DNA from: a virus
Virus record (IMG/VR): IMGVR_UViG_3300036770_008707
Location: 1-33,837 of that record
Strand: one strand, 5' to 3'
Length of the DNA stretch: 33,837 nucleotides
In this document: piece by piece, positions 1,049 to 33,837 of the stretch
Layout: every line of letters starts with the position of its first letter
Position numbering within the stretch: the stretch's first letter is position 1
Made by a program: the position numbers and the translations under genes
The notes under the pieces: generated by a model
Told to the model about the DNA's origin: nothing
The model's input: only the letters and a program-made list of their open reading frames with translations
The model's database searches: none

Positions 1049-1306
1049 TCACTTGAGGTGCGTGGGTTGTTTGAGTTGTTTGGCTTGGAGGAAGCGGAGG
1101 ACCTCCGCTTGATGCGGTGAGAGGCTCAGGCGCTGGGCGCTGCCGGCGATGGCGCGGGCGGCATCCCCGAGCAGCGCGGCGAGATCGAGGCGCTTCTGCT
1201 GCTCGATCACGAGGTGCTCGTCTTTGATGATGGCCGAGATGAGGCTGAGCGTGTGCCAGGCGATCATCGCGTGCGGTTCGGCGGTGACTTCGGTTGCGGC
1301 GGTCAT
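1049..1306 (-). CDS. small early protein following MuB (85 aa)
   Basis: The start codon overlaps the MuB stop in an ATGA arrangement and is preceded by a G-rich Shine-Dalgarno-like stretch (GGGGGG), so translation is probably coupled to MuB. The 85-residue product appears all-helical. Its C-terminal part (LSLSPHQAEVLRFLQAK, about residues 61-77) resembles a helix-turn-helix half but is too short to call. The open frame extends upstream to 1363 inside MuB, but the overlap and ribosome-binding site decide for 1306. No known family recognised. The position suggests an accessory role in early replication or transposition, which is inference. Confidence 0.7.
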   Translation of the reverse strand: MTAATEVTAEPHAMIAWHTLSLISAIIKDEHLVIEQQKRLDLAALLGDAARAIAGSAQRLSLSPHQAEVLRFLQAKQLKQPTHLK

Positions 1307-2373
1307 GCTGCCCCCCTTTCGAGCTTGGCGAGGATGTCGTGGGCTTTGACGAAGTGGCTCCACTTCACGGAAGCGCGCTCCTTGCTGGCGAGGCGCGTGG
1401 CGGCCTGCAGGAGCTTGCCGAACTTGCGGAGGCTGCGGGCTTCCATGAGTTCGTCGACGACCTGGGCGGCGGCGCCGGTGGGCTCGTCATTGAGTCCGTA
1501 GCCGGAGGCGATGAGGAGGACGTCGGCGCGGGGAAGCCTGGTCGGCAGTTGCACTTTGAGAACGCCGCGATCGGTGAATTGCTCGAGCAGCTCAGCGTGC
1601 TGGCCGAGCTGGATCTCCTTTTTGAGTTGCGTGGTGCCGCACAGAACCATGCCGCACTTGGTGCGGTCGTGGATCTCGCGGATGACCTCGAGGCACTTGA
1701 TGGCGCTGCCTTTTTGGTAGGACAGAAACACCTGATGCAGCTCGTCTATGATGACGAGGTTCGTGTGATCGATGGCCTGCAGGACGCGCTCGCGGAGGTT
1801 GTCGAAGCAGGAGTTCGGCGAGAGGTAGCAGGCCTTGGCGATCTCCTTCATCATGAGCTGCACGCCGGCCGAGGCGGGCATGCGGATGAGTTTGGTCTGG
1901 CCGTGGTTGTGCGTTTCGCGCCGGCGCTCGAAGGCGAGCGTCTTGCCCAGGCCACGGTTGCCGAAGATGAAGGCGATCGATTGACTGATCAGCGCCCATT
2001 CGCAGGTGCGGTCGATCTTGCGAGCGATCGAGGTCAGGGCGAAGGGAGCGTCGCCCATGGTGCCCCGTTCCTCGGCGAGGCGGCGGAAGCGGGTGACGCG
2101 TTCGATGACGTTGTCGAGTTTCGCCTGGTATTTGCCGGTGAAGGCCCGGTAGAGCGTTGTGGCGGAGATCTTGGTCTCCTCGGCCAGGCGCGTGAGGTTC
2201 CACCCATTTTCCCGCGAGAAGGCGTAGAGCCAGCGGAGCGAATCGCGCTGGTCCTCCGGCAGTTCTCGCGTCGCGGCGACGACGAGGTCGCCGGTGAGTG
2301 ATTTCATGTTGAGCCCGTCGGCTGGGACGAGCTGGGTTTCTGCTGACTGCGTGGTGGTGTCGGGGTTGTGCAT
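1303..2373 (-). CDS. MuB-like AAA ATPase, transposition target-capture protein
   Basis: The 356-residue protein has an N-terminal helix-turn-helix (about residues 50-82, NGWNLTRLAEETKISATTLY) and a P-loop ATPase domain. The Walker A motif is GNRGLGKT at residues 138-145, and the Walker B motif is LVIIDELHQVF about 80 residues later. This architecture (HTH then AAA+) is that of phage Mu B, which binds target DNA, delivers it to the transposase and stimulates strand transfer. The gene starts 14 bases after the transposase stop in the same leftward operon, matching the A-B order of transposable phages. The frame is open back to 2661 inside the transposase gene; I choose the ATG at 2373 because the upstream extension is low-complexity antisense-like sequence. 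Confident in family, less in exact start. Confidence 0.9.
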   Translation of the reverse strand: MHNPDTTTQSAETQLVPADGLNMKSLTGDLVVAATRELPEDQRDSLRWLYAFSRENGWNLTRLAEETKISATTLYRAFTGKYQAKLDNVIERVTRFRRLAEERGTMGDAPFALTSIARKIDRTCEWALISQSIAFIFGNRGLGKTLAFERRRETHNHGQTKLIRMPASAGVQLMMKEIAKACYLSPNSCFDNLRERVLQAIDHTNLVIIDELHQVFLSYQKGSAIKCLEVIREIHDRTKCGMVLCGTTQLKKEIQLGQHAELLEQFTDRGVLKVQLPTRLPRADVLLIASGYGLNDEPTGAAAQVVDELMEARSLRKFGKLLQAATRLASKERASVKWSHFVKAHDILAKLERGAA

Positions 2374-2386
2374 AAAAGGGGTTGGC

Positions 2387-4207
2387 TCAGAGGAGCTGGT
2401 CGAGGTCGTCAAAGTTTTCCGGCGCGGCCTCGGGCGCGACGCCGGCGGGCAAAAGGTCCTCGAGCTGCCCCCGCTCGTCGCGCAGGCGGGCGCGGGTGGC
2501 GTCGCTATGCTGGGGCTCGGGATCAGAAAGCACTCTTGCGTTGTGGCGCATGTCTGCGGCCATCTGCCGGGCTTGCTGCGCGTGGCGGGCGCTGAAGGGC
2601 GCAAGGCGTTTGGATTCAATGTGAGCGGCCTGGCCGGAGGCGCGCTGCAGGGCGGGAACATCGGACCTGCAAATACTGTTCACACGCGGGCAGGAGGCGA
2701 CGAAACGGCGTTTCGCGTCGAAGACCCACAGGGCATCCGGTGCGTAGGGATTTATAACGGCAAAAAACTTTTCGCGGTCGGGCAGCATGTGGGCATCGAA
2801 CCGGATGACGTCGCCGGAGATTTCCCCGTTGGTGAGTTCCAGCATTCCCGAGCGAGTGGTGAGTTCGACGCCGTTGTCGCGCGCGAGGATGCCTGCGACG
2901 GCCTCGGGGCGAAGACGCGTGAGGCGGCGCCGGTCGGCGTTCCAGACTTCGCCAGGAGAAAGCCGTCGCATTCTTCCGGTGCGAACGTCAGGAATGTAGT
3001 GGTCGTCCCACCCTTCTAACGCGTGATCGGTGCGGGCATTGATGCGCGTGTAGATTTCGTCGGCGATGGCGCGGAACTGCTGAATGGTCAGCAGCGGCCA
3101 GCGCAGCATTTCCGCGCGCTCCGGGGCGAGTTGAGCAACGGCCTTCATGAGCGCATCGTTGCGCTTGAGCAGGCCATGGAGCTGCTCGGGGCGGTGGTCG
3201 CGGTCCATGCCGGTTTGTCCCGGCAGTGCGCCCATTTCGTTGTGGATAAGGTTGCCGAGGGATTCGAGCGCGGCTTTGAAGCGGAAGTTGCCCTTGCTGC
3301 GGCCAGCGTATTGGTGCGCGGCGGCGGCGGCGCCTTCCATGCCCGAGCGGGCTACGGTGATGAGGCCATTGGTTTCGTCGTGCAGCATGGCCTCGAGGTC
3401 TGCGCGGATGGCAGCGGTGCCATGCTCGACGACGAGCACGGTGCCGCGCTCCGAGTAGCCGTGATTCCACAGGACCGAGGCCAAGAGGAAGCGCATGTCG
3501 GCTTCTTTGAGACCCTCCATGCGACCGTCGCGCTCCATGCGCACCGTCATTCCCCAGGCGAACTTGCAGGCGCTGAAAAGATCGATGGCGTGAAACTCGA
3601 GCGGGCGTCCGGTTTTGCGTTGGTCGAGGACGTTGACAAAGTTGTCGTGCCAGATGTCATCGAAAAGATAATGGCTGCCGACGTAGAGACCGGCGCGCGT
3701 CGTATAGACGAGCCGGCGTTCGCAAGCGGCGGCGCTGCGACCGATGCGCGCAGCCTTCAACTCGAAGCGAGATGACGCGTGGCGTGCAAGGTTGCGCGGA
3801 CTCCAGCCTTTCGGGAATCCGGTGGCAGGGTCGATGGGTGTGGTTGTGCTGATGCGGCCGTGCTGCCAATCGCGGCGCATGGCGCGGATGCCAGGGCGGT
3901 TCTTGCGCTGGTTGCTCTCGATGTAGCGGCGGAGGGTTTCGGCGTCGCTTTGGCTGAGAACGATGCGATCGCTTTCGGTCACGGCGATGCGACGGTCGAT
4001 GAGCGCGGCGGCTCCGGTGGATTTGAGCGCGTAATACTTGCGCTTCACCGTGCCCAAGGGGTGGCCGGTGCGCGCGGAGATGTCGCGCAGGGTCTTGACC
4101 ACGCCGGTTTTCGCTTCAAGCGCCGGCGCGAGGATGGTCTGCCAATGCTGCAGGCCTGCGCGCGCGTCCTTGGGTAGCGTGGCCCATGTGCCGAGATCGA
4201 CGCTCAT
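2387..4207 (-). CDS. MuA-type DDE transposase
   Basis: The 606-residue product would cut and join phage ends during integration and replicative transposition. The N-terminal part has a winged-helix/HTH character (residues about 35-65). The RNase-H-like core follows, with FHAIDLFSA (D209) as first acidic residue, VVEHGTA (E261) where a second Asp is normally found, and KAALES (E315) as the third. A C-terminal beta-rich domain, then a charged tail, resemble the MuA layout. The spacing of 52 and 54 residues is compatible with a DDE core. The start overlaps the upstream stop (ATGA) with GGGAGG six to seven bases ahead. MuB follows directly. The Asp-to-Glu change at residue 261 is unusual and noted separately. 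Confidence 0.9.
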   Translation of the reverse strand: MSVDLGTWATLPKDARAGLQHWQTILAPALEAKTGVVKTLRDISARTGHPLGTVKRKYYALKSTGAAALIDRRIAVTESDRIVLSQSDAETLRRYIESNQRKNRPGIRAMRRDWQHGRISTTTPIDPATGFPKGWSPRNLARHASSRFELKAARIGRSAAACERRLVYTTRAGLYVGSHYLFDDIWHDNFVNVLDQRKTGRPLEFHAIDLFSACKFAWGMTVRMERDGRMEGLKEADMRFLLASVLWNHGYSERGTVLVVEHGTAAIRADLEAMLHDETNGLITVARSGMEGAAAAAHQYAGRSKGNFRFKAALESLGNLIHNEMGALPGQTGMDRDHRPEQLHGLLKRNDALMKAVAQLAPERAEMLRWPLLTIQQFRAIADEIYTRINARTDHALEGWDDHYIPDVRTGRMRRLSPGEVWNADRRRLTRLRPEAVAGILARDNGVELTTRSGMLELTNGEISGDVIRFDAHMLPDREKFFAVINPYAPDALWVFDAKRRFVASCPRVNSICRSDVPALQRASGQAAHIESKRLAPFSARHAQQARQMAADMRHNARVLSDPEPQHSDATRARLRDERGQLEDLLPAGVAPEAAPENFDDLDQLL

Positions 4208-5883: not shown

Positions 5884-6387
5884 TCAGGCTGCGGTGAAAA
5901 TGCGGCGGAGTTCGTCACGGACGATGTCACGGACGATGTTGCGCAGGAGCGCGTCAAAGGTGTGTTCGGAGGCGATGCCCGCTGCCTTTTCAGCCTCCGC
6001 AAGGCGCAAGGCTGTTCTCGGAGAGACATGCCTCGTTCCCGCCCGCGCCAAAAAAATGGTGTTCGACGAAATGCCGATCCTGGCAGCCAGGTCTCGCACT
6101 GTTACACCGAGGGAGTTGCACAAGATGTCCGTGCGCGTGGTGAATTCCTCAGCCGAGATAACGGTGGGATGACCGGTGTTGACGTTGACGTGGAGGCCGA
6201 CGGCTTTAGCTAGGCGCGTGATTTCGGCGACTTTCGGGGTGCGTCCCCGAAGGTATTTGCTGATGGCGGATTGACTGACTCCAGCTTGCTGCGCGATCTC
6301 GGCCTGCGTGCTGCCAGATTCAATGGCTGCACGGATGCGGGTTGATATCGTCTGCCGCAGCACGTCCGCGTCTTTGTGTGTGCTCAT
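5884..6387 (-). CDS. double-XRE helix-turn-helix regulator
   Basis: The 167-residue protein contains two HTH_3/XRE-like domains in tandem. The first spans about residues 24-66, with GSTQAEIAQQAGVSQSAISK as the core. The second spans about 92-138, with GVTVRDLAARIGISSNTIFL. The first is a textbook Cro/C1-type helix-turn-helix; the second is more degenerate. A C-terminal helix (ALLRNIVRDIVRDEL) might mediate oligomerisation. It is the second gene of the leftward early operon, starting from an ATG two bases upstream of which is the following TGA-CC-ATG junction type. It is a good candidate for a repressor or Ner-like controller of the transposition genes that follow it. Which promoter it binds cannot be told. 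Confidence 0.85.
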   Translation of the reverse strand: MSTHKDADVLRQTISTRIRAAIESGSTQAEIAQQAGVSQSAISKYLRGRTPKVAEITRLAKAVGLHVNVNTGHPTVISAEEFTTRTDILCNSLGVTVRDLAARIGISSNTIFLARAGTRHVSPRTALRLAEAEKAAGIASEHTFDALLRNIVRDIVRDELRRIFTAA

Positions 6388-6389
6388 GG

Positions 6390-6581
6390 TCAGTTGGCTT
6401 GCACGCGAAGCTTTTTCGAGGGGAGGCAGCGCTCTAACTCATTGCGAAGGGCTGCTCGGATAAACTTTGACCGGTCGGAATCCCTGCGTCTGACGGCCTC
6501 ATCCAAGAAGGGCAGGATGTCGTTGGGAACCCATGCTCCGACGAAGGTTGCTTTAGTTGTTTGAACTGAGCCTCGTTTCAT
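6390..6581 (-). CDS. ribbon-helix-helix regulator, leftward arm of the switch (63 aa)
   Basis: First gene of the leftward early operon. The 63 residues contain a ribbon-helix-helix pattern: a short beta strand (ATFVGAWVP, about 11-19), helix DILPFLDEAVRR, and helix SKFIRAALRNELERC. It aligns with the product of the divergent gene at 6646 (RGSVQ/RGSNQ, VGAWV/IGTWV, FIRAALRNELER/FFRNALYAEMER), so the two are paralogues facing each other across one operator. RHH proteins of this size bind palindromic operators as dimers of dimers, as Arc and Mnt of phage P22 do. No Shine-Dalgarno sequence precedes the ATG; the predicted transcript starts only a few bases upstream of it. A role as one half of a lysis-lysogeny switch is inferred. 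Confidence 0.8.
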   Translation of the reverse strand: MKRGSVQTTKATFVGAWVPNDILPFLDEAVRRRDSDRSKFIRAALRNELERCLPSKKLRVQAN

Positions 6582-6645
6582 CTTTAAACGACTTTAACTG
6601 AGTTAAAGTCGTTGGCAAGGGAAAAAATTGGCTTAAAGTCAAATT
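6582..6645. promoter_or_regulatory. symmetric divergent promoter/operator of the RHH switch
   Basis: This 64-base gap separates the two divergent RHH genes. A perfect inverted repeat with 12-base arms (AACGACTTTAAC, three-base spacer TGA) spans 6587-6613. The half-site TTAAAGTC occurs three times: inverted at 6590-6597, then direct at 6603-6610 and 6633-6640, the last two exactly 30 bases apart. Rightward promoter-like boxes are TTGGCA (6612-6617), 16 bases, TAAAGT (6634-6639). Leftward they are TTGCCA (6618-6613), 16 bases, TAAAGT (6596-6591). The -35 boxes overlap and each -10 box lies in a half-site, so a bound repressor would block both. Transcripts would start at or just before the start codons. 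Confidence 0.75.
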
Positions 6646-6882
6646 GTGCCTCAGCGAGGATCGAACCAGAAAATGATCGGAACGTGGGTCGAGTCGGAGT
6701 TTGCCGATTTAGTCGACAGGGCTAGGGGTCAAACAACTCTATCGCAGTTTTTCAGAAACGCTTTATATGCGGAAATGGAGAGGGCTGGTGTTTCCGTGCC
6801 TAACCATCTTGTATATAGCCCTGACCGGAAAGGAAAAGGCGGCCGTCCCAAGAAGGCTAATGGCCCAGCCAAAGCACCATGA
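6646..6882 (+). CDS. ribbon-helix-helix regulator, rightward arm of the switch (78 aa)
   Basis: First rightward gene. I choose the GTG at 6646 because the encoded PQRGSNQ matches RGSVQ near the N terminus of the divergent RHH protein; an ATG at 6673 would remove it. The RHH core is IGTWVESEFADLVDRA then LSQFFRNALYAEMERA (about residues 11-47). The C terminus adds a Lys/Gly-rich tail (KGKGGRPKKANG) absent from its paralogue, which could contact DNA nonspecifically. No Shine-Dalgarno sequence is present and the predicted -10 box ends six bases upstream of the GTG, so a leaderless mRNA is plausible. The stop overlaps the next start (ATGA). Probably the opposing partner of the gene at 6390-6581. 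Confidence 0.75.
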   Translation: MPQRGSNQKMIGTWVESEFADLVDRARGQTTLSQFFRNALYAEMERAGVSVPNHLVYSPDRKGKGGRPKKANGPAKAP

Positions 6883-7490
6883 CCTACATGATCAAGCGCG
6901 ACGGTCAAGAGGCCGGGCCTTTCACGTTCGAGCAGATGAAAGAAATGCGGGCCTCGGGCGAAGTCGACGATGCGGCGCTGTTTCGCCGCTACGGGACAGA
7001 GCATTGGCTGGCGGCGGTAGATCTCGAGGACGAGTTGACCAGTGGCTCGACCCCACCCCCTTTACCCAGCACCGGAGCGCCATCGAGCAAATTTCTTGGC
7101 CTTACAGATTGGCAACAGGTTGGCGTGATCATGGCGTTCAGTGCGCTTGCGATTGCTGCCTATGTGATCTACGGATTTGCCTCGGGTGAATTTTCGGAAA
7201 ACATTCGCCGAGCTGACGAGCGCCGCGCAGCAGAGAAGTTGGAAGAGGAGCTGGAAGGTGCGGCCCGTGCCAAGGCGGCGTCGTCGGGGCTTGCCGACGG
7301 ACGAGAAATTGCGCTGGCGGTTGCTTCAGGAAAGATGGCAAGGCCACTAAGCGTGCAAATTGAAAAACTCGCTGCTGAACGGCTGAAGCAAAGCGGCGCA
7401 GATAGGCTAAGTGTTCTGGAGCAACAGATGTGGCTCTACGAATATGAAGGTGCGTTCAAACGTGCTTACAAGCGGGAGGTCGCTTGGTGA
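6879..7490 (+). CDS. GYF-domain membrane protein (203 aa)
   Basis: The N terminus (about residues 3-50, MIKRDGQEAGPFTFEQMKEM then LFRRYGTEHWLAAVDL) is a bacterial GYF_2-type domain, a fold usually thought to bind protein ligands at membranes. A Pro-rich linker (TPPPLPSTGAP) leads to one hydrophobic segment at about residues 86-106 (GVIMAFSALAIAAYVIYGFA), then a charged helical tail rich in Glu, Lys and Ala. It is coupled to the RHH gene by ATGA overlap and precedes a small membrane protein by one base, so these may act together. It lies between the switch and the lysis cassette, in an AT-richer stretch, where temperate phages carry lysogenic-conversion or exclusion genes. The exact role is unknown. 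Confidence 0.75.
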   Translation: MTYMIKRDGQEAGPFTFEQMKEMRASGEVDDAALFRRYGTEHWLAAVDLEDELTSGSTPPPLPSTGAPSSKFLGLTDWQQVGVIMAFSALAIAAYVIYGFASGEFSENIRRADERRAAEKLEEELEGAARAKAASSGLADGREIALAVASGKMARPLSVQIEKLAAERLKQSGADRLSVLEQQMWLYEYEGAFKRAYKREVAW

Positions 7491-9061: not shown

Positions 9062-9793
9062 ATGTCCGCCCTGCTCCGCATCGGGTCGCGCGGCGAAGCC
9101 GTCGAAGACTGGCAGAGAATCCTGCAATCGCACGGGTTCGGCGGTGGTATTCTGCGCTTCGTCGATGGAATTTTCGGGGGGCGGACGGATTCAGCAACGC
9201 GGCAATTCCAGGAGCGTCATGGTCTGATGGTCAACGGCGTGGTGAACGCGGCCACGCGCGAGGCAGCTTCAAAATCCAACGGCCGGGTGATCGTGCGCAT
9301 CGCCGAGGGCGAGCTGAAGGTCAAGGAGACGAGCAAAAATCAGGGGCCTGGGATTGAGAAGTATTGGCCGGCGACCAATTATCCAGAGGGCTACAGGAAC
9401 CGCGAACCGTGGTGCGCGGCCTTTGCGGCCTGGTGCGTGCGCGAGGCTGGTTTGCGGGAAGGCTGGCTCAAGAAAGATGCGGCGCGTCCGCGATCGGCAG
9501 CGGTGCGTGAATGGGTGCCGGCGGCCCTGCGTCTGGGGTGGGAAGTCTTCGGGCCGCGCGACGGTCTGCGCTTTCCGAGCGCCGGCGACGTGGTGGTCTT
9601 CACTTCCAGCCACATGGGCATCGTCACGGATTTTGATGGCACTTGGGTGCACACTATCGAAGGCAACACCAACGCGGCTGGCAACCGCGAAGGGAAGTTC
9701 GTCATGCGCCATCAGCGCGTGCTCGGCTATTGCCGCAGCTTCATTCGTCTGCCCAAGCCGGGCGACGCACCCAAAACCGGGAGGATCCGTTGA
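9062..9793 (+). CDS. endolysin: peptidoglycan-binding domain plus CHAP domain
   Basis: The 243-residue protein has an N-terminal PG_binding_1-type repeat (about residues 5-70, RGEAVEDWQRILQSHGF then DGIFGGRTDSATRQFQERHG). A CHAP amidase/endopeptidase domain follows (about 95-225). The catalytic Cys is C118 in PWCAAFAAWC, the catalytic His is H184 in SSHMGIVTDF, and HTIEGNTN supplies the polar residue that usually follows. It would cleave cell-wall peptides once the holin has opened the inner membrane. No signal peptide is visible, fitting holin-dependent release. GGGGAA precedes the ATG. It sits directly after the holin and before the candidate i-spanin, giving a complete lysis cassette. Confidence 0.9.
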   Translation: MSALLRIGSRGEAVEDWQRILQSHGFGGGILRFVDGIFGGRTDSATRQFQERHGLMVNGVVNAATREAASKSNGRVIVRIAEGELKVKETSKNQGPGIEKYWPATNYPEGYRNREPWCAAFAAWCVREAGLREGWLKKDAARPRSAAVREWVPAALRLGWEVFGPRDGLRFPSAGDVVVFTSSHMGIVTDFDGTWVHTIEGNTNAAGNREGKFVMRHQRVLGYCRSFIRLPKPGDAPKTGRIR

Positions 9794-10129
9794 ATGGGAG
9801 ACGCGTCGTCCATCAATCCGGCCCTGTTGAAGGACCTGTTCGTGCTGGCCGTTGTCCTGGCCGGTGTGGGGGCTTCGTTGGTGGCCATCATGCGGCGCTT
9901 TCGTTCCGACCACGAGCCTCGCGCCATCCATCCGCAGCCCCTGCGCATCAGCGCGGATCAGCGTCACATCGACGAGGAACGCTATGTGCGGGACCGGGCG
10001 GAGATCGTGGCGCGCATCGATCACCTCGAGCGCACGATGAAACGCGACCGGGAAGCGCTGATGGAGGAGATCGCGGCCGTGCCGCATCGGGTCATCGCCC
10101 TCTTGAAAGACACGAAAGGACTTTTGTGA
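9794..10129 (+). CDS. candidate inner-membrane spanin: one TM helix plus coiled coil (111 aa)
   Basis: The start codon follows the endolysin stop with no gap. The protein has one hydrophobic helix at about residues 13-33 (LKDLFVLAVVLAGVGASLVAI), a short polar linker, and a long charged heptad-rich helix at about 55-105 (VRDRAEIVARIDHLERTMKR). This is the form of Rz-type inner-membrane spanins, whose periplasmic coiled coil bridges to the outer-membrane lipoprotein; the candidate partner lies just upstream of the holin. A structural or cell-envelope alternative cannot be excluded. The stop overlaps the start of the next very small gene (GTGA). Confidence 0.6.
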   Translation: MGDASSINPALLKDLFVLAVVLAGVGASLVAIMRRFRSDHEPRAIHPQPLRISADQRHIDEERYVRDRAEIVARIDHLERTMKRDREALMEEIAAVPHRVIALLKDTKGLL

Positions 10130-14487: not shown

Positions 14488-15192
14488 ATGAACGCAATCA
14501 ACCGACAAATTCACCCGGAGATCCGGGTATTGGACGAGGCCCAAGGCCTGGTCGAATACGTGGCCAGCGACGAAACGCTCGACCATTACCGCGAGATCAT
14601 CAAAGCCGACGGCTGGAAGTTCAACTACTTCAAGAAAAACGCGCCGTTCGTCGATTCGCACAACTACGAGACGATCGACCGCCTGCTCGGGACCGTGGTC
14701 GACTTCCGCGTCGAGGGCAAGCGCCTCATCGAAACGGTGAAGTGGGCCAAGGAAGTGGTCGAAAACACGCTGGCCCGCGTCGGCTTTGCCATGACTCAGG
14801 CCGGCCACCTCAAAGCGGTGAGCGTCGGCTTCATCCCCACCAAGTATGTAGACCAGTGGACCAATGGCGGCGCCGATCTGGCGCGTGAGGCGCTGAACAT
14901 GGGATTGGCGGCCGACGTCTCGAGCAAGGTCCGCACGATCTTCCTCGAGCAGGAACAGATCGAGCTGAGCGCCTGCATCATCGGGGCCAACCCGAGCGCC
15001 CTGGCCAAGGCCTACAAGGACGGCGCGGTTGAGGACAAAGACCTCGACGCCATCTACCAGAAAATTTCCGCAGACATCGAAAAACAAACCGCACGCGAGG
15101 CCGAGAGAGCTGCTGCCGCCGCGCGGGCAGAGGAGCAGCAGCGCCAGTGGTTGCGGAAATTCGAAACAATCATCAACGGAGGAAAATCCTAA
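14488..15192 (+). CDS. HK97-family prohead protease (S78-like)
   Basis: The 234-residue serine protease processes the scaffold part of the capsid protein during head maturation. The motifs fit the family: catalytic His H58 in PFVDSHNY, catalytic Ser S112 in LKAVSVGFIPTKY, and the following ELSACIIGANPSALA strand-loop characteristic of the group. The C-terminal quarter is a Glu/Ala/Arg-rich helix (about residues 180-228), which may act as internal scaffold or be self-cleaved. GGAAAAAAG precedes the ATG. The capsid gene follows directly, the usual portal-protease-capsid order of HK97-type phages. In Mu, the protease/scaffold module is different, so the head here is an HK97-like version on a transposable-phage backbone. 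Confidence 0.88.
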   Translation: MNAINRQIHPEIRVLDEAQGLVEYVASDETLDHYREIIKADGWKFNYFKKNAPFVDSHNYETIDRLLGTVVDFRVEGKRLIETVKWAKEVVENTLARVGFAMTQAGHLKAVSVGFIPTKYVDQWTNGGADLAREALNMGLAADVSSKVRTIFLEQEQIELSACIIGANPSALAKAYKDGAVEDKDLDAIYQKISADIEKQTAREAERAAAAARAEEQQRQWLRKFETIINGGKS

Positions 15193-28940: not shown

Positions 28941-30200
28941 TTAGGATGACTTGGATAACTTCGATTTGCGGGTCCGTTTCTTCGTCTTCCGCTGTTTGGA
29001 AATGGGCACATTTTCAAGAATGGTACCTTTCTCCTTTTTCCAGCGCAGGTAGGCTTCGACCATCTCCGGCCTTCCCCTCAGGACTTTCCCGCCTTGCCCA
29101 CCACCGGGCGTTTGCGCCAAGAGTCCCTGCAAGGCGGCGTTGTCACACATCCCGCTGTAAAGATTCTTGGACCAACCCCGCTGACGGAAGGCGATCTGGA
29201 TCTGACCTGCTAACAGCAGGGCTTCGGACGGGTCGTTCTTGTAATCGTGCGGGAAGATGGCCACGAAATCCTCCATGGGAGGCGGTTTGGGTCCGAGTCT
29301 CGAGTTCGCCCGGTCGACGATGCCCGGCGCGGAGAGAACTTCCTCGTGGGATACCTCACGCCAACAGATACCCGTCTGAGAGTGGGCGATATACTTGGTG
29401 AAAGCCGGGGTCGTTCCGTTCTTCTCTTTCCAGCGCAGTCGTTTTCCGCGCTTGCCGGCCCGCAACTCAAAGTAGTCAAACGACTCCATCGAGCGAATCA
29501 CCATGACTGCCCTCGCCCAGTTCGCCCAATCGGCAGACCCCGATCCGGCGTATGCGTGGTCGTTAGCTTGCCACTCCTGCCGTTTGGTTTGCAGAGGTGG
29601 CTTGTTGGTGTGATGAACCAAAACCAAACCGCAGCGCGCACGGTGCAGAACGGGATTGAGGCAGTTCCGGAGAAACATCGAGACGTCTTTTTGCTGATTG
29701 GCATCGCCTCCAAGGTAGGCCAAAGCAGGGTCGACAATCACCAGGTCGAATCGTTCCCGTTCGAGCAGAGGTTGGAGCACTTCGCTGCAGAAGGCAGCGC
29801 CCGTGCGGCTGTCTTCCCAGACTGTCTTGATAACGCTGGCCCCGCGGTCGTCGTCCGTGATGGCCAACTCCTTGAGCACTCCTTCGCGGAACTCGGCCAT
29901 GTCGCCTGGATCGTTTTCCGCTTGGACGATCAAGATCCGAAGAGGGCCGACGGGCACCAAACCGAAAGCCTCGCGTCCCAAGCTCCAAAGAACAGCGCAC
30001 TGGATGGTAAAGGAACTCTTGCCGATACCGCTTTGACCGACGAGGAGCATAGCGCCACCACGGCAGAGAAAGCGATGCTTGAGCAATTCATCGGGGTCGT
30101 GTTCCGGCGGAAGAGGAATCTCGTAAAAGTCGAGCATCTCCGGCGGAGCGACCGCTGGAGCGGAGTCCACGGGTTCAGGAATGGCCGCTTCGTTCAACAT
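28941..30200 (-). CDS. RepA-like hexameric replicative helicase (AAA_25 type, 419 aa)
   Basis: The RecA/DnaB-like ATPase has Walker A GQSGIGKS at residues 55-62, Walker B-like LVIVDPALAYLGGDANQQ, and LVLVHHTNKP after it, the motif order of plasmid RepA and satellite helicases (AAA_25). The C-terminal 90 residues are basic (KQRKTKKRTRKSKL) and may bind DNA. It would unwind DNA at an origin that may be the adjacent repeat region. The start overlaps the primase stop by seven bases, so primase and helicase are made together. It belongs to the right-hand integrative unit, not to the phage late operon, which runs in the opposite direction. Family assignment is firm. Confidence 0.88.
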   Translation of the reverse strand: MLNEAAIPEPVDSAPAVAPPEMLDFYEIPLPPEHDPDELLKHRFLCRGGAMLLVGQSGIGKSSFTIQCAVLWSLGREAFGLVPVGPLRILIVQAENDPGDMAEFREGVLKELAITDDDRGASVIKTVWEDSRTGAAFCSEVLQPLLERERFDLVIVDPALAYLGGDANQQKDVSMFLRNCLNPVLHRARCGLVLVHHTNKPPLQTKRQEWQANDHAYAGSGSADWANWARAVMVIRSMESFDYFELRAGKRGKRLRWKEKNGTTPAFTKYIAHSQTGICWREVSHEEVLSAPGIVDRANSRLGPKPPPMEDFVAIFPHDYKNDPSEALLLAGQIQIAFRQRGWSKNLYSGMCDNAALQGLLAQTPGGGQGGKVLRGRPEMVEAYLRWKKEKGTILENVPISKQRKTKKRTRKSKLSKSS

Positions 30201-31117
30201 GGCAGCACCTCCGGGTTAAAAAAGTAGACGGCTTGGCGGATGGGAGCCTTGTCTTTTGGACGGCGCATTCCGTCGGGAAGCCGGACAAATTGGCAGCGGG
30301 TCCAAGTTGCCGGATCAGCTCCGAGACTGACCGCATAGCGCATGAACTTGAGCCAAGCGGACTCGGAGTCGCCAACCGTGCAGAACCACCCGTGCAACGA
30401 TTTTCCTCCACTGTGCACGGCCAGCACCAAGGGACTGAAGGCGTTGAGGTGCCATAACCGGGCCGCTTGCGAGTCCTCGCCAAGATTGTCGTCGAATTCA
30501 ATAACCAGGAAACGCCGCGGTCCGGTGTTATCGAGAGCCCGAGGCGAAGGTTGGCCGTCGGATTTGCGGGTGCCTCGAAGCGCGGCCATCGGGTTGGGAA
30601 CGATGAATTGGAGCCTGCGCAACTGTCCGCGCCACTCTTCGCGGGTGGCTGTTTCGCACTGGCCGTGGGAGCGACCGCAACACAGCAGGGGGTTGCCGGG
30701 AAATAGTCTGTCGATCAGATGTTCGGCAGCATGATCCTCGAGGCGGACCGGCGAGGCCTCCCACAGGTCGTAGAGGCCGCATGCCTCGTGGCCCTGAATA
30801 ATCTCTTGGATACGGCTGCTCGCGGCAGCCGGCCATCGGGGCGATCGAGCGGGCGGCATGCTCCCGCGGCGCGCCGGCATTTCCGATGGTGCCGATCTTG
30901 AACCCGAATTTCTGATGGCGTCGGGAATCTCATGCGCATCCAGCGTGCGACCGCAGTTCACCGCGGCCCCTTCAATCATTTCCGCCATCTCGGCCTCGCT
31001 GTAGCCGGCGCGGCGCAGCGCAAGCGCGCATTGAAATATCCAAGCGTGAACACCGTTCCCTGCCGTGGGGCAGGCGCCCAGCACTTCGCGGACAAGCTGC
31101 GGTGCGGGCGGAATCAT
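30194..31117 (-). CDS. archaeo-eukaryotic-type primase (prim-pol-like, 307 aa)
   Basis: The 307-residue protein has an N-terminal helical domain (about residues 1-75) and a C-terminal primase-like core. Acidic motif FLVIEFDD (E207, D209, D210) is followed by VHSGGKSLHGWF, which fits the sxH-type motif of AEP primases, and WTRCQFVRLPDGMRR near the end. Primase-helicase pairs like this are found on plasmids and phage satellites. The ATG at 31117 is preceded by GGAGG and overlaps the upstream stop (ATGA). The frame is open further upstream but the overlap decides. It would prime replication started at the neighbouring repeats. Confidence 0.8.
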   Translation of the reverse strand: MIPPAPQLVREVLGACPTAGNGVHAWIFQCALALRRAGYSEAEMAEMIEGAAVNCGRTLDAHEIPDAIRNSGSRSAPSEMPARRGSMPPARSPRWPAAASSRIQEIIQGHEACGLYDLWEASPVRLEDHAAEHLIDRLFPGNPLLCCGRSHGQCETATREEWRGQLRRLQFIVPNPMAALRGTRKSDGQPSPRALDNTGPRRFLVIEFDDNLGEDSQAARLWHLNAFSPLVLAVHSGGKSLHGWFCTVGDSESAWLKFMRYAVSLGADPATWTRCQFVRLPDGMRRPKDKAPIRQAVYFFNPEVLPC

Positions 31118-31446
31118 TGGCCCTCCTTTCCCGGCACGCGAAAATGGCCGAGCATGCAAGCTTGGGCGGCGGCGAGAACGCTGTCCGCCGCTTCCTGAGT
31201 CTCGGGCTCGGCGGTGATCATGATCCACTGGCAGCCGTCACTCGCCGCTCGATCGGGCAGCAGGACGAACGAGACGAACCGGCCCGGTTCGCGCAGCGAA
31301 AACGAGAAAGGCGGGGGACCCTTGCGAAGCTCCGCAAGGATAGTTTTCATTTCTCCAAGCCGCTCGGCTTCCTCTTTCACGCGACGCCTGTCGCGGCACA
31401 CGCGCAGCTCCGGTTGCTGCAAATCGTTGACATGCCATATCCTCAT
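31114..31446 (-). CDS. small protein of the replication operon (110 aa)
   Basis: The 110 residues begin MRIWHVNDLQQPELRVCRDR and contain EEAERLGEMKTILAELRKGP, then a beta-strand-rich part (FVSFVLLPDRA, WIMITAEPETQE). Overlaps at both ends (ATGA) place it firmly in the leftward operon, with GGAGG before its start. No domain is recognised. It may be an accessory to primase or regulator. The frame is certain by operon geometry. Confidence 0.7.
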   Translation of the reverse strand: MRIWHVNDLQQPELRVCRDRRRVKEEAERLGEMKTILAELRKGPPPFSFSLREPGRFVSFVLLPDRAASDGCQWIMITAEPETQEAADSVLAAAQACMLGHFRVPGKEGQ

Positions 31447-31880
31447 GGGCGGCCTCCTTGATTCGTGGATTCGCCTGCAAGCATCCGGGCAGCGGGCCGG
31501 CAGCCACCGGCCCGTTGCCTTCGCCTCTTCCACGAGGCCCTGGTAATCTCCCGCCGCGCTGCGCGCAGATGCGGATTGTGCAGCGGCATTTCAAAGAGCC
31601 GCGCTATCCGGTTGATCTGCCTGGAGATCGCCGCCACGGAGCACCCCGAGCGGCGAGCGTGCTCGCGCATCGAACCGGACTGCTTGCCGAGCAAAAATCT
31701 CCAGGCAACGCGGTTGATCTCCGGATTGCCGGTGAGAAAGCTGGAGGCCACTTTCTCAACCAATCCGTAGAGATCCACGGACCACTCGGCGGACTCCGTC
31801 TCCGGCTCCAGTTCATCGACCGGGTGACGAAACTCGGCCCCGATCCTTCGACCATCCTCGAAAAAGGTTCGGCCGCTCAT
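31443..31880 (-). CDS. HTH protein of the integrative unit (145 aa)
   Basis: The 145-residue protein has an N-terminal acidic part and, at about residues 55-95, a helix-turn-helix pattern (AWRFLLGKQSGSMREHARRS then GCSVAAISRQINRIARLF). The C terminus is Arg-rich (SWKRRRQRAGGCRPAARML) and probably binds nucleic acid. AGGAGG precedes the ATG, and the start overlaps the upstream stop (ATGA). In satellites and small integrative elements such proteins regulate or initiate replication. No family name can be given safely. Confidence 0.7.
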   Translation of the reverse strand: MSGRTFFEDGRRIGAEFRHPVDELEPETESAEWSVDLYGLVEKVASSFLTGNPEINRVAWRFLLGKQSGSMREHARRSGCSVAAISRQINRIARLFEMPLHNPHLRAARREITRASWKRRRQRAGGCRPAARMLAGESTNQGGRP

Positions 31881-32089
31881 TGCCGCACCTCCTGCGCTTG
31901 GATGCCGAAGCGGCTCTTGATCGCCTGGCGGACTTCCGATGGATCAAAAAGGTGCAATCGGGCCGTCGGTGCGATGACCGGGATCCAGCGCCGGTGGACC
32001 CATTGGTCGACCGTCCGCGGGGACACCCCCAGAAGGGAGGCAAGTTGCTTCTTTTTGACGAGACGTTGAGTTGGATGCGTGTTGTTCAC
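31877..32089 (-). CDS. AlpA/Xis-like HTH protein (70 aa)
   Basis: The 70-residue protein is almost entirely an HTH_17/MerR-like domain: VKKKQLASLLGVSPRTVDQW at about residues 11-30, then VHRRWIPVIAP and FDPSEVRQAI. This is the standard AlpA/excisionase form, which bends DNA at att sites and controls excision or int expression. It starts with GTG at 32089, preceded by AAGGGG, and heads the leftward operon HTH-HTH-unknown-primase-helicase. The stop overlaps the next start (ATGA). The divergent gene at 32144 encodes another HTH protein. Confidence 0.82.
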   Translation of the reverse strand: MNNTHPTQRLVKKKQLASLLGVSPRTVDQWVHRRWIPVIAPTARLHLFDPSEVRQAIKSRFGIQAQEVRQ

Positions 32090-32143
32090 GCACCCCTTGC
32101 GGTGTCAACGTATGAACGCTACATGTTACGTTTTTACTCTGTT
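32090..32143. promoter_or_regulatory. divergent intergenic region between two HTH genes
   Basis: A 54-base gap separates the Xis-like gene (leftward) from the divergent HTH gene (rightward). It contains the inverted pair AACGTA (32107-32112) / TACGTT (32127-32132) with a 14-base spacer, a possible operator for one of the two HTH proteins. Promoter boxes are not clear on either strand. Confidence 0.35.
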
Positions 32144-32467
32144 ATGCCGAAATTTTTGACCTGTCCCGAAATCGCCCGCCGCAGCGGATACTCCCGCATG
32201 CACATCGCCCGTTTGGCCAAGCAAGGCCGGCTTCCCGGAGAACGCATCGTGACCGCAGGAGGCCAATACCGCTACGCGTGCACGCCGGAGATGCTGCGCT
32301 GGATGCGATTGATGCGAACGCGTCACCGCGGCGGCCTGATGCCCCCCCTCAAGCTTGGTCTTCCGGAGATTCAGGCCGCGCAGTTCCGCCGCGGTGGGAA
32401 AAGATCGTGGCGTGGCCATTTGGGAGATCGACTGCCTGTTGGAGGAAGTGGACGAAAGGATCGTTGA
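32144..32467 (+). CDS. MerR/excisionase-like HTH protein, divergent (107 aa)
   Basis: The 107-residue product has an N-terminal HTH at residues 3-50 (FLTCPEIARRSGYSRMHIAR then LPGERIVTAGGQYRYACTPE), the pattern of MerR-like/excisionase-type DNA-binding domains with a wing. The C-terminal half is basic and Gly/Arg-rich. The frame is open upstream, but the ATG at 32144 gives the natural start of the HTH. It faces the Xis-like gene, so the two could form a regulatory pair for the integrative unit. The end overlaps the next small gene by about 56 bases. Confidence 0.7.
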   Translation: MPKFLTCPEIARRSGYSRMHIARLAKQGRLPGERIVTAGGQYRYACTPEMLRWMRLMRTRHRGGLMPPLKLGLPEIQAAQFRRGGKRSWRGHLGDRLPVGGSGRKDR

Positions 32468-32696
32468 GGTCTTGAGCATGGGACCGCCGCCCAGCGCGGA
32501 GGAATACACCTCTCTCTTGCAGTGCCTACGACCCGCCGTCTTGGGGCTGGCCAAAAGAGAGGCAACGATCACCAAGCTAATGAGCCAAGTGCCGACGCCA
32601 ACTACTCAGCCCAAAGGCAAATCCAAACGGCCTGGACCATTGCCGCCGGTCAAGGAGGGAAGATCGAGAACCACTCGTGAGCCTGGGCTGGAGTGA
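32412..32696 (+). CDS. small protein between HTH gene and integrase (94 aa)
   Basis: From GTG at 32412 the product begins VAIWEIDCLLEEVDERIVEV, continues GPPPSAEEYTSLLQCLRPAV and ends in a Lys/Pro/Arg tail. The first half is helical and acidic, the tail basic. It overlaps the HTH gene upstream and runs convergently into the last 47 bases of the integrase gene. The start is uncertain: an ATG at 32355 is also open. No family recognised. Function unknown. Confidence 0.55.
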   Translation: MAIWEIDCLLEEVDERIVEVLSMGPPPSAEEYTSLLQCLRPAVLGLAKREATITKLMSQVPTPTTQPKGKSKRPGPLPPVKEGRSRTTREPGLE

Positions 32697-33837
32697 CGAG
32701 TTCGCGGTAGTGCTTGAAAAGCATCTGCGGGGAGTTGCCCATTTCGAGGCTGACCTTGGCGGCATCCTGCACATCCGCCAGCCGGTAACTGCCGAAACTG
32801 TGCCGCAGCGCATTCGACTTCCAGGCAACACCAGCCGCACGTCCGCACTTGGTGAGTGCTTTGCGGTAGGTGGCAAATGTCACTCCCCCGGATTCCTGAC
32901 GGCGCGGTAAAAGCCACGCGCGGAGATTCGGGAGAATGGGGACTAGACGACGCTGCTGTGTTTTGGTGATTTCCCCGGACACCTTGATGTAACCGGAGGC
33001 GAAATCCACTGCCGACCAATCCAAACGGCCGATCTCGGCGCTGCGAAGGCCCGCAAAAGCCGCGATGGCCAGATAAGGGAGCATGGCTTCCTCGGCAGCG
33101 GCCAGCAGTTGGCGCATTTCGTCCGGCGTGAAGATCTGCGGGGCTACGTAAGCCTCGCGCTTTTTGTCCAGTCCGGCCGCCGCAGTCGGTCTGTCCTGCC
33201 GCACATAGCATTGCTTCTGCGCCCAAAGGAAAAACGTGCGCAAACACGTGATGAAATTATTTTTCGTCCGGGCACTTCCCTTGATCCCGTCGATGAATCT
33301 CCGCAGGGCCTGCACCGAAATCTCATGCAGTTGGTCGGCGGCGAAACTCCGACCGAAACCGGCCAATAGCTGCCGCACCGTCTGGATATGACGCGGCGAC
33401 AACCCCGACTCCTCCTTGAGCTTGATGTATTCCTGCGCCGCGGCCTGCGCATTAACGGTCGTCAACTCCTTGAGCAGTTGCGCCATGTGATTGGCTTTGG
33501 GAACCATGGACGCTCCGAGCAGGGCTTCGCGCGTATCTGCCCATTCGCGGATGGCAAACGGCAGGGAAACTCCGAACTTTGCCGCGATGGCCTCGGCGTC
33601 CCGCAGGACCCGGATGTCGAGCGGCGTGATCTCCGAGGCCCGGCCGCTGTTGAGCAGCGAAATATGGACCTGCTGAGCATAGGCTTTGGCCTTTTGCGGA
33701 TCGGCGAGCGTTTTGGTCTGCTTCTCGCCCAATTCATACCAGCGCACTTGGTACGAACGGTAGTGCGAGCGCTTGCGGCGCAGAGGATAGATCCGGACCT
33801 CAGCCGATCCGTGGCCTACGACGTGGACGCGATGCAT
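32650..33837 (-). CDS. tyrosine recombinase/integrase (395 aa, reaches the window edge)
   Basis: The catalytic domain spans about residues 230-390. R265 lies in GLRSAEIGRLDW, a Lys in the GEITKTQQRR hairpin, R345 and H346 in NALRHSFGSYRL, and the nucleophile Y377 in MLFKHYREL. The first His of the classic HxxR is Asn here (NALR) and the later His/Trp position is also Asn (EMGNSP). An N-terminal SAM-like core-binding domain precedes (about 95-215, RHIQTVRQLLAGFG and FITCLRTFFLWAQKQ). The first codon is an ATG at the last base of the window, so an earlier start is possible. It is likely to act at the tRNA-derived att site. Confidence 0.9.
   Translation of the reverse strand: MHRVHVVGHGSAEVRIYPLRRKRSHYRSYQVRWYELGEKQTKTLADPQKAKAYAQQVHISLLNSGRASEITPLDIRVLRDAEAIAAKFGVSLPFAIREWADTREALLGASMVPKANHMAQLLKELTTVNAQAAAQEYIKLKEESGLSPRHIQTVRQLLAGFGRSFAADQLHEISVQALRRFIDGIKGSARTKNNFITCLRTFFLWAQKQCYVRQDRPTAAAGLDKKREAYVAPQIFTPDEMRQLLAAAEEAMLPYLAIAAFAGLRSAEIGRLDWSAVDFASGYIKVSGEITKTQQRRLVPILPNLRAWLLPRRQESGGVTFATYRKALTKCGRAAGVAWKSNALRHSFGSYRLADVQDAAKVSLEMGNSPQMLFKHYRELVTPAQAHEWFSIFPP

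Follow-up and report, generated by a model that had tools for sequence, protein, structure and literature searches.

Which proteins decide between early expression and its repression in a Mu-like phage whose early divide is occupied by two ribbon-helix-helix (RHH) genes? In sister phages, this position holds a CI-like helix-turn-helix (HTH) gene facing a small Ner-like gene. The window (the whole stretch of DNA analysed here, 33,837 bases, which is the full IMG/VR virus record IMGVR_UViG_3300036770_008707) encodes a Mu-like transposable phage with a leftward early operon and a rightward arm carrying endolysin, terminase, portal, capsid and tape-measure genes. At the divide between the two, the divergent ORFs RHH1 and RHH2 face each other across a gap of 64 bases (6582-6645), and the features referred to below are collected in Table 1. 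Our main reading, to which we give a probability of roughly 0.7, is that the pair forms the primary lysis-lysogeny (immunity) switch of this phage, built from two paralogous RHH repressors that replace CI and Ner/Cro; the operon with the MuA-like transposase is presumed to be its main target. No Rfam element and no tRNA were found in the window. Beyond the tail genes, on the minus strand at 28941-33837, the window also encodes a primase/RepA-like ATPase, an excisionase-like protein and a tyrosine integrase, and this region is probably a second integrated element adjoining the transposase-type phage.

Table 1. Genes and predicted regulatory features of the window, in window positions.
Feature	Position	Strand	Description
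MuB-like ATPase	1303-2661	-	Same early operon as the MuA-like gene; phrog_296 DNA transposition protein, E 9.1e-33
MuA-like transposase	2387-4207	-	phrog_310 transposase, E 2.4e-12
Double-HTH regulator	5884-6387	-	Directly after RHH1, early operon; Pfam HTH_3, E 4.8e-17, two stretches
RHH1, 63 aa	6390-6581	-	Opens the leftward early (transposition) operon; Ner/Cro position
Palindrome AACGACTTTAACT G AGTTAAAGTCGTT, 27 bp, perfect	6587-6613		Presumed operator, spanning spacer and -10 of the presumed early promoter
Half-site TTAAAGTC, three copies	6590-6597, 6603-6610, 6633-6640	-, +, +	Exact matches
Presumed early promoter	6591-6618	-	-35 TTGCCA (6618-6613), 16 bases, -10 TAAAGT (6596-6591)
Presumed RHH2 (maintenance) promoter	6612-6639	+	-35 TTGGCA (6612-6617), 16 bases, -10 TAAAGT (6634-6639)
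A/T tract	6622-6629		Between operator and third half-site; read from sequence
Third half-site TTAAAGTC	6633-6640	+	Overlaps the -10 box of the presumed RHH2 promoter
RHH2, 78 aa, GTG start	6646-6882	+	First gene rightward; CI-like repressor position of sister phages
GYF_2-domain protein	6879-7490	+	Next after RHH2; Pfam

Homology and predicted fold of the two proteins

The first-pass annotation, made from the letters and ORFs of the window, had read the two divergent ORFs as homologous small RHH proteins, and both the ORFs and their homology are borne out. A search of the record with RHH1 retrieved RHH2 at 35% identity (E 0.002), and HHalign paired the profiles of both families with a probability of 98.6%. 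RHH1 matches Pfam RHH_1 above the cut-off, with an E-value of 7.7e-6. The RHH2 of the window has no Pfam RHH_1 match of its own; within its family, 18 of 25 members match that model at E<=1, the best of them at 1.8e-6. The GTG start of RHH2 fits the aligned M/V-P-N-x-R starts of its relatives.

Structural predictions agree with this assignment. The AlphaFold2 models of both proteins, generated from natural alignments, have a mean pLDDT of 82 each and show an extended N-terminal segment followed by two helices of RHH length, at residues 20-32 and 37-52 in RHH1 and at residues 17-27 and 32-46 in RHH2. The RHH1 model aligns with PDB chains of RHH proteins, PutA, AmrZ, CopG and Arc among them, at Z 5-6 (for PutA, 1.4 A over 46 residues at Z 5.7), and structural alignment of the RHH2 model with solved RHH chains returned no row with Z>=2. 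Judged by sequence and predicted structure together, both proteins are members of the ribbon-helix-helix (MetJ/Arc) superfamily and presumably bind DNA as dimers, through their paired strands.

Many of the solved chains matched belong to antitoxins (AtaR, TacA, KacA, ParD) or to the partition protein ParG, which raises the alternative that one or both proteins belong to a toxin-antitoxin or plasmid-partition module. We consider this very improbable, as no toxin or ParA-like domain was found in the neighbouring genes scanned. Where a type II toxin-antitoxin system has an adjacent toxin gene, the neighbours in the window are the double-HTH regulator and the GYF_2 protein, and the pair goes together with transposition genes and an operator common to both proteins instead.

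The two proteins differ in their tails, as was already noticed at first reading: only RHH2 carries a Lys/Gly-rich extension, whose motif AP-x-R-x-GKGG is found again in roughly half of the relatives. In the window (residues 59-71, 6820-6858) and in relatives, the tail motif reads AP-x-R-x-GKGGRPKK and is AT-hook-like. No SOS-type inactivation domain is visible in RHH2.

A tree of all RHH copies, which rests on a short domain and leaves most forks without resolution, places 26 of the 27 RHH1 sequences in one supported group and requires just two changes between RHH1 and RHH2. This distribution is best explained by a single old duplication, the products of which would have been inherited as a pair.

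Predicted operator and promoters in the shared gap

The gap between the two genes had been described as holding a perfect 12-base inverted repeat, three half-sites and divergent promoter-like boxes. The repeat is indeed perfect, but its arms are 13 bases long, not 12, and flank a centre of one base. No second match to this palindrome exists in the 33,837-base record, even when three mismatches are allowed. The half-site occurs exactly three times in the record, each time in the gap, against 0.29 copies expected, and no shuffle reached three. The two predicted promoters lie back to back, and their boxes are the only two such pairs in 1.8 kb (0.4 expected). The finer description also held in full, in that both TAAAGT -10 hexamers fall inside half-sites and half-sites two and three are 30 bases apart. 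Compared with shuffles, the presumed RHH2 promoter of the window has a p of 0.010.

This plan is conserved among the 25 distinct loci with an RHH pair, the collection of which is described below. A TTG[AC] -35 box is located 20-62 bases upstream of RHH1 in every one of them (25/25, with 8.5 expected), mostly 34-40 bases from the RHH1 start codon and usually with an A/T-rich tract before it. The spacer and -10 region of the early promoter are occupied by an odd palindrome, often with ACT-N-AGT at its centre, and the best palindrome scores summed over the 25 loci give a z of 8.6 against shuffles. Most loci have one more half-site of the phage's own type, no further than about 9 bases from where RHH2 starts (z 7.1 when summed and compared with shuffles, with operator centres set by eye). 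The promoter in the RHH2 direction is weak over all loci when measured by the E. coli consensus (summed z 1.6). The distances from boxes to start codons suggest that both mRNAs may be leaderless or nearly so. We would also like to note that A/T-rich tracts sit between the palindrome and the third half-site, at the place equivalent to that in the window in most relatives, alongside the AT-hook-like motif in the RHH2 tails.

Distribution of the pair and exchange with CI/Ner

Relatives were reached first via the transposase, and RHH protein alignments then added more; with the RHH1 of the window as the sole query, a scan of the proteins of viral contigs gave no match. The divergent RHH2/RHH1 pair was found in the window and in 26 further loci, making 27, or 25 distinct loci after removal of near-copies. 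L037 and L044 were left out of the count for having no divergent partner found or a contig end there, and L058, in which an RHH1-like gene faces an unrelated HTH gene, was dropped as a non-member. The pair is widespread among a set of Mu-like phages, chiefly from Verrucomicrobiota. For 22 of the 27 loci, genes resembling MuA or MuB were identified next to the pair, and one pair with MuA and MuB lies in a genome from a Verrucomicrobiota sample (G051; the phylum is that of a verrucomicrobial bin). Transposase identity to the queries drops to about 22-27% in the most distant loci, so the pair is old or mobile, or both. At L036 (1453-2013) and L056 (10153-10725), no MuA was found in the contig and the next early gene is a rep_O-type replication gene (in L056 similar by eye), which means that the cassette is not confined to transposable phages. 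RHH1 is followed in L067 (1671-1955) and L005 (7067-7330) by what may, judged by eye, be a third small protein of RHH type; Pfam gave no confirmation for these two candidates.

At the same genomic position, the RHH pair and the CI/Ner pair exclude each other. Each locus scanned upstream of the transposase had an RHH pair, a CI/Ner pair or a partial match, and none had both. An S24 peptidase domain, which is typical of CI/LexA repressors, is present in the CI-like gene of L015, L017 and L023. In the transposase tree, RHH and CI types alternate, with 7 changes between them, at least 4 of which are forced by well-supported branches, and the nearest transposase relative of the window (L006) is a CI-type phage. 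A gene for a GYF_2 protein stands after RHH2 in the window, and one stands after the CI-like gene in the sister phage L024.

A closer view of exchange is offered by L054 (pair at 9621-10120) and L055 (9601-10105), whose MuA proteins are 83% identical, yet whose RHH1 and RHH2 proteins share only 38% and 33% identity and whose operators differ. Judged from these comparisons, the pattern is that of a putative exchanged immunity-like cassette. The RHH2 tails of the two are nearly identical despite the differing RHH domains and operators, suggesting a possible recombination point inside RHH2.

Autoregulators such as CopG and antitoxins often have the RHH fold, and RHH1 and RHH2 might accordingly act as two Ner-like dampers of early expression only, with no bistable switch between them and with the phage kept in some other way. 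The divergent pairing, the location of RHH2 in the CI slot, the exchange with CI/Ner and the swapping of cassettes all fit immunity better, and we regard the damper arrangement as improbable.

If both proteins read one operator, their DNA-facing residues should correspond within each phage. Based on the alignment to the structural matches and general knowledge of the RHH fold, residues 13, 15 and 17 of RHH1 (10, 12 and 14 of RHH2) should face the DNA. The middle strand position (G15 in RHH1, G12 in RHH2) is shared by the two proteins of one phage in 17 of the 25 pairs, where 5.0 would be expected, and its z of 6.3 is the highest of the homologous columns tested. The neighbours on the same face (RHH1 13 and 17) have z 2.7 and 2.3, and the residues between them 1.5 and below. 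The match at the middle strand residue supports the recognition of one operator by both proteins, as far as sequence comparison can indicate. Columns of the second helix also match within phages (z 3.6-4.4). When operators were compared to residues, with operator centres set by eye, no RHH1 column did better than G15, but higher scores came from RHH2 columns that are not in the strand, so that lineage effects remain and the comparison is not specific; this covariation is suggestive only.

Known switches and the proposed mechanism

The first-pass annotation had set a mirrored RHH pair apart from Arc and Mnt of phage P22. That contrast fails, because the P22 genes are themselves such a pair: in the P22 record, mnt (14519-14770, minus strand) and arc (14861-15022, plus strand) are divergent RHH genes whose promoters overlap and which enclose the operators of Arc and Mnt. 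In P22, Mnt maintains repression and Arc shuts down early. The immI region of P22 is the closest known design, sharing with the window divergent RHH genes as well as operators and overlapping promoters in a common gap, which in our case are predicted. Profiles of RHH1, of RHH2 and of both jointly gave no significant score against Arc and Mnt. The two systems differ in that P22 has separate Arc and Mnt operators, whereas a single half-site type recurs here, and in that the P22 pair is accessory to c2/cro, whereas the pair described here stands at the main early promoter before the transposition genes. P22 immI controls the antirepressor gene ant (PMC2629481); the operons downstream of the RHH pair hold MuA/MuB-like genes on one side and the GYF_2 gene on the other, and no antirepressor was recognised among the genes scanned.

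P22 also provides the model for a different role, in which the RHH pair would be an accessory immunity module and the main repressor would be another protein, for example the double-HTH protein. In P22 a mirrored RHH pair does exist alongside the separate c2/cro switch, and the window does encode a strong HTH_3 protein directly after RHH1. However, this second early gene reads in the early direction and would fall silent with the early operon, and it is not next after RHH1 in the other RHH loci listed. The absence of a CI/Ner pair from the RHH-type loci scanned, together with that of a recognisable antirepressor gene among the neighbours tested, also argues against an accessory role, which we therefore hold to be unlikely, if a little less so than the damper arrangement.

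Further systems resemble parts of the arrangement. In phage lambda, the repressors CI and Cro are placed opposite one another, with divergent promoters and common operator sites between them, and the RHH pair has this geometry too; the fold is another, and the operator here consists of one palindrome plus a single half-site. The c (repc) and ner proteins of Mu and B3-type phages are helix-turn-helix proteins, whereas both proteins are RHH here, and the likeness lies in the position at the divergence before a MuA/MuB early operon. In the B3-type phage Fc02, divergent repc and ner genes with overlapping promoters stand at the start of the operon with transposase A/B and gemA (PMC9936078), and the repc/ner switch of B3-type phages is the closest logic at a like position. 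The RHH protein F55 of the Sulfolobus virus SSV1 is reported to maintain lysogeny by binding to repeats located at early promoters and at the promoter of its own gene (PMC5569661). It differs in belonging to an archaeal virus and in acting on tandem repeats, and no divergent RHH antagonist is described in that paper.

The first-pass proposal that two RHH proteins form a switch at the early/late divide has strong comparative support in the 25 pairs, the operator and promoter plan, the CI/Ner exclusion and the matched residues. We infer the control of lysogeny itself, as well as the binding to DNA, the use of the promoters, the assignment of lysogeny maintenance to one of the proteins and the order in which sites are filled. 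In the switch that we propose, RHH2, transcribed divergently from the early operon, would occupy the CI slot and maintain lysogeny. Two RHH2 dimers would fill the palindrome over the spacer and -10 of the early promoter, keeping the transposition operon silent; RHH proteins are known to bind as side-by-side dimers on repeated half-sites in AmrZ (PMC3325190) and in archaeal viral regulators (PMC5569661). The third half-site, lying over RHH2's own -10 box, would allow RHH2 to repress itself at high concentration. Upon induction or infection, RHH1 would be the first early product, would occupy the Ner/Cro slot and bind the same half-sites, and would shut off RHH2 and later the early operon as well.

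A more tentative extension, doubtful at present though less so than the alternatives discussed above, is that RHH1 and RHH2 form heterodimers via the shared ribbon and a co-evolving second helix, with the ratio of homodimers to heterodimers on the one palindrome setting the decision. The matching of second-helix columns could reflect such heterodimers, and it fits lineage effects too. If this extension is true, lysogeny would be switched by the exchange of subunits between paralogues, in a system swapped among phages in place of CI/Ner.

In the open-licence literature searched, we found no report in which two RHH proteins form the main switch of a transposable or bacterial phage, and the pair is likely a so far undescribed form of lysogeny switch. 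When the RHH1 proteins of the window and L043, the RHH2 protein of L051 and the transposase of the window were searched against 50,697 records of named phages, none of them gave a match, and homology to named phages alone would thus miss these repressors. The loci constitute a natural set of matched proteins and operators, including L054 and L055, through which immunity exchange and the origin of the switch become directly testable. The proposed switch would show that RHH and CI/Ner cassettes have repeatedly replaced each other at one genomic position in related phages, and that another fold can supply both sides of the primary switch of a temperate phage.
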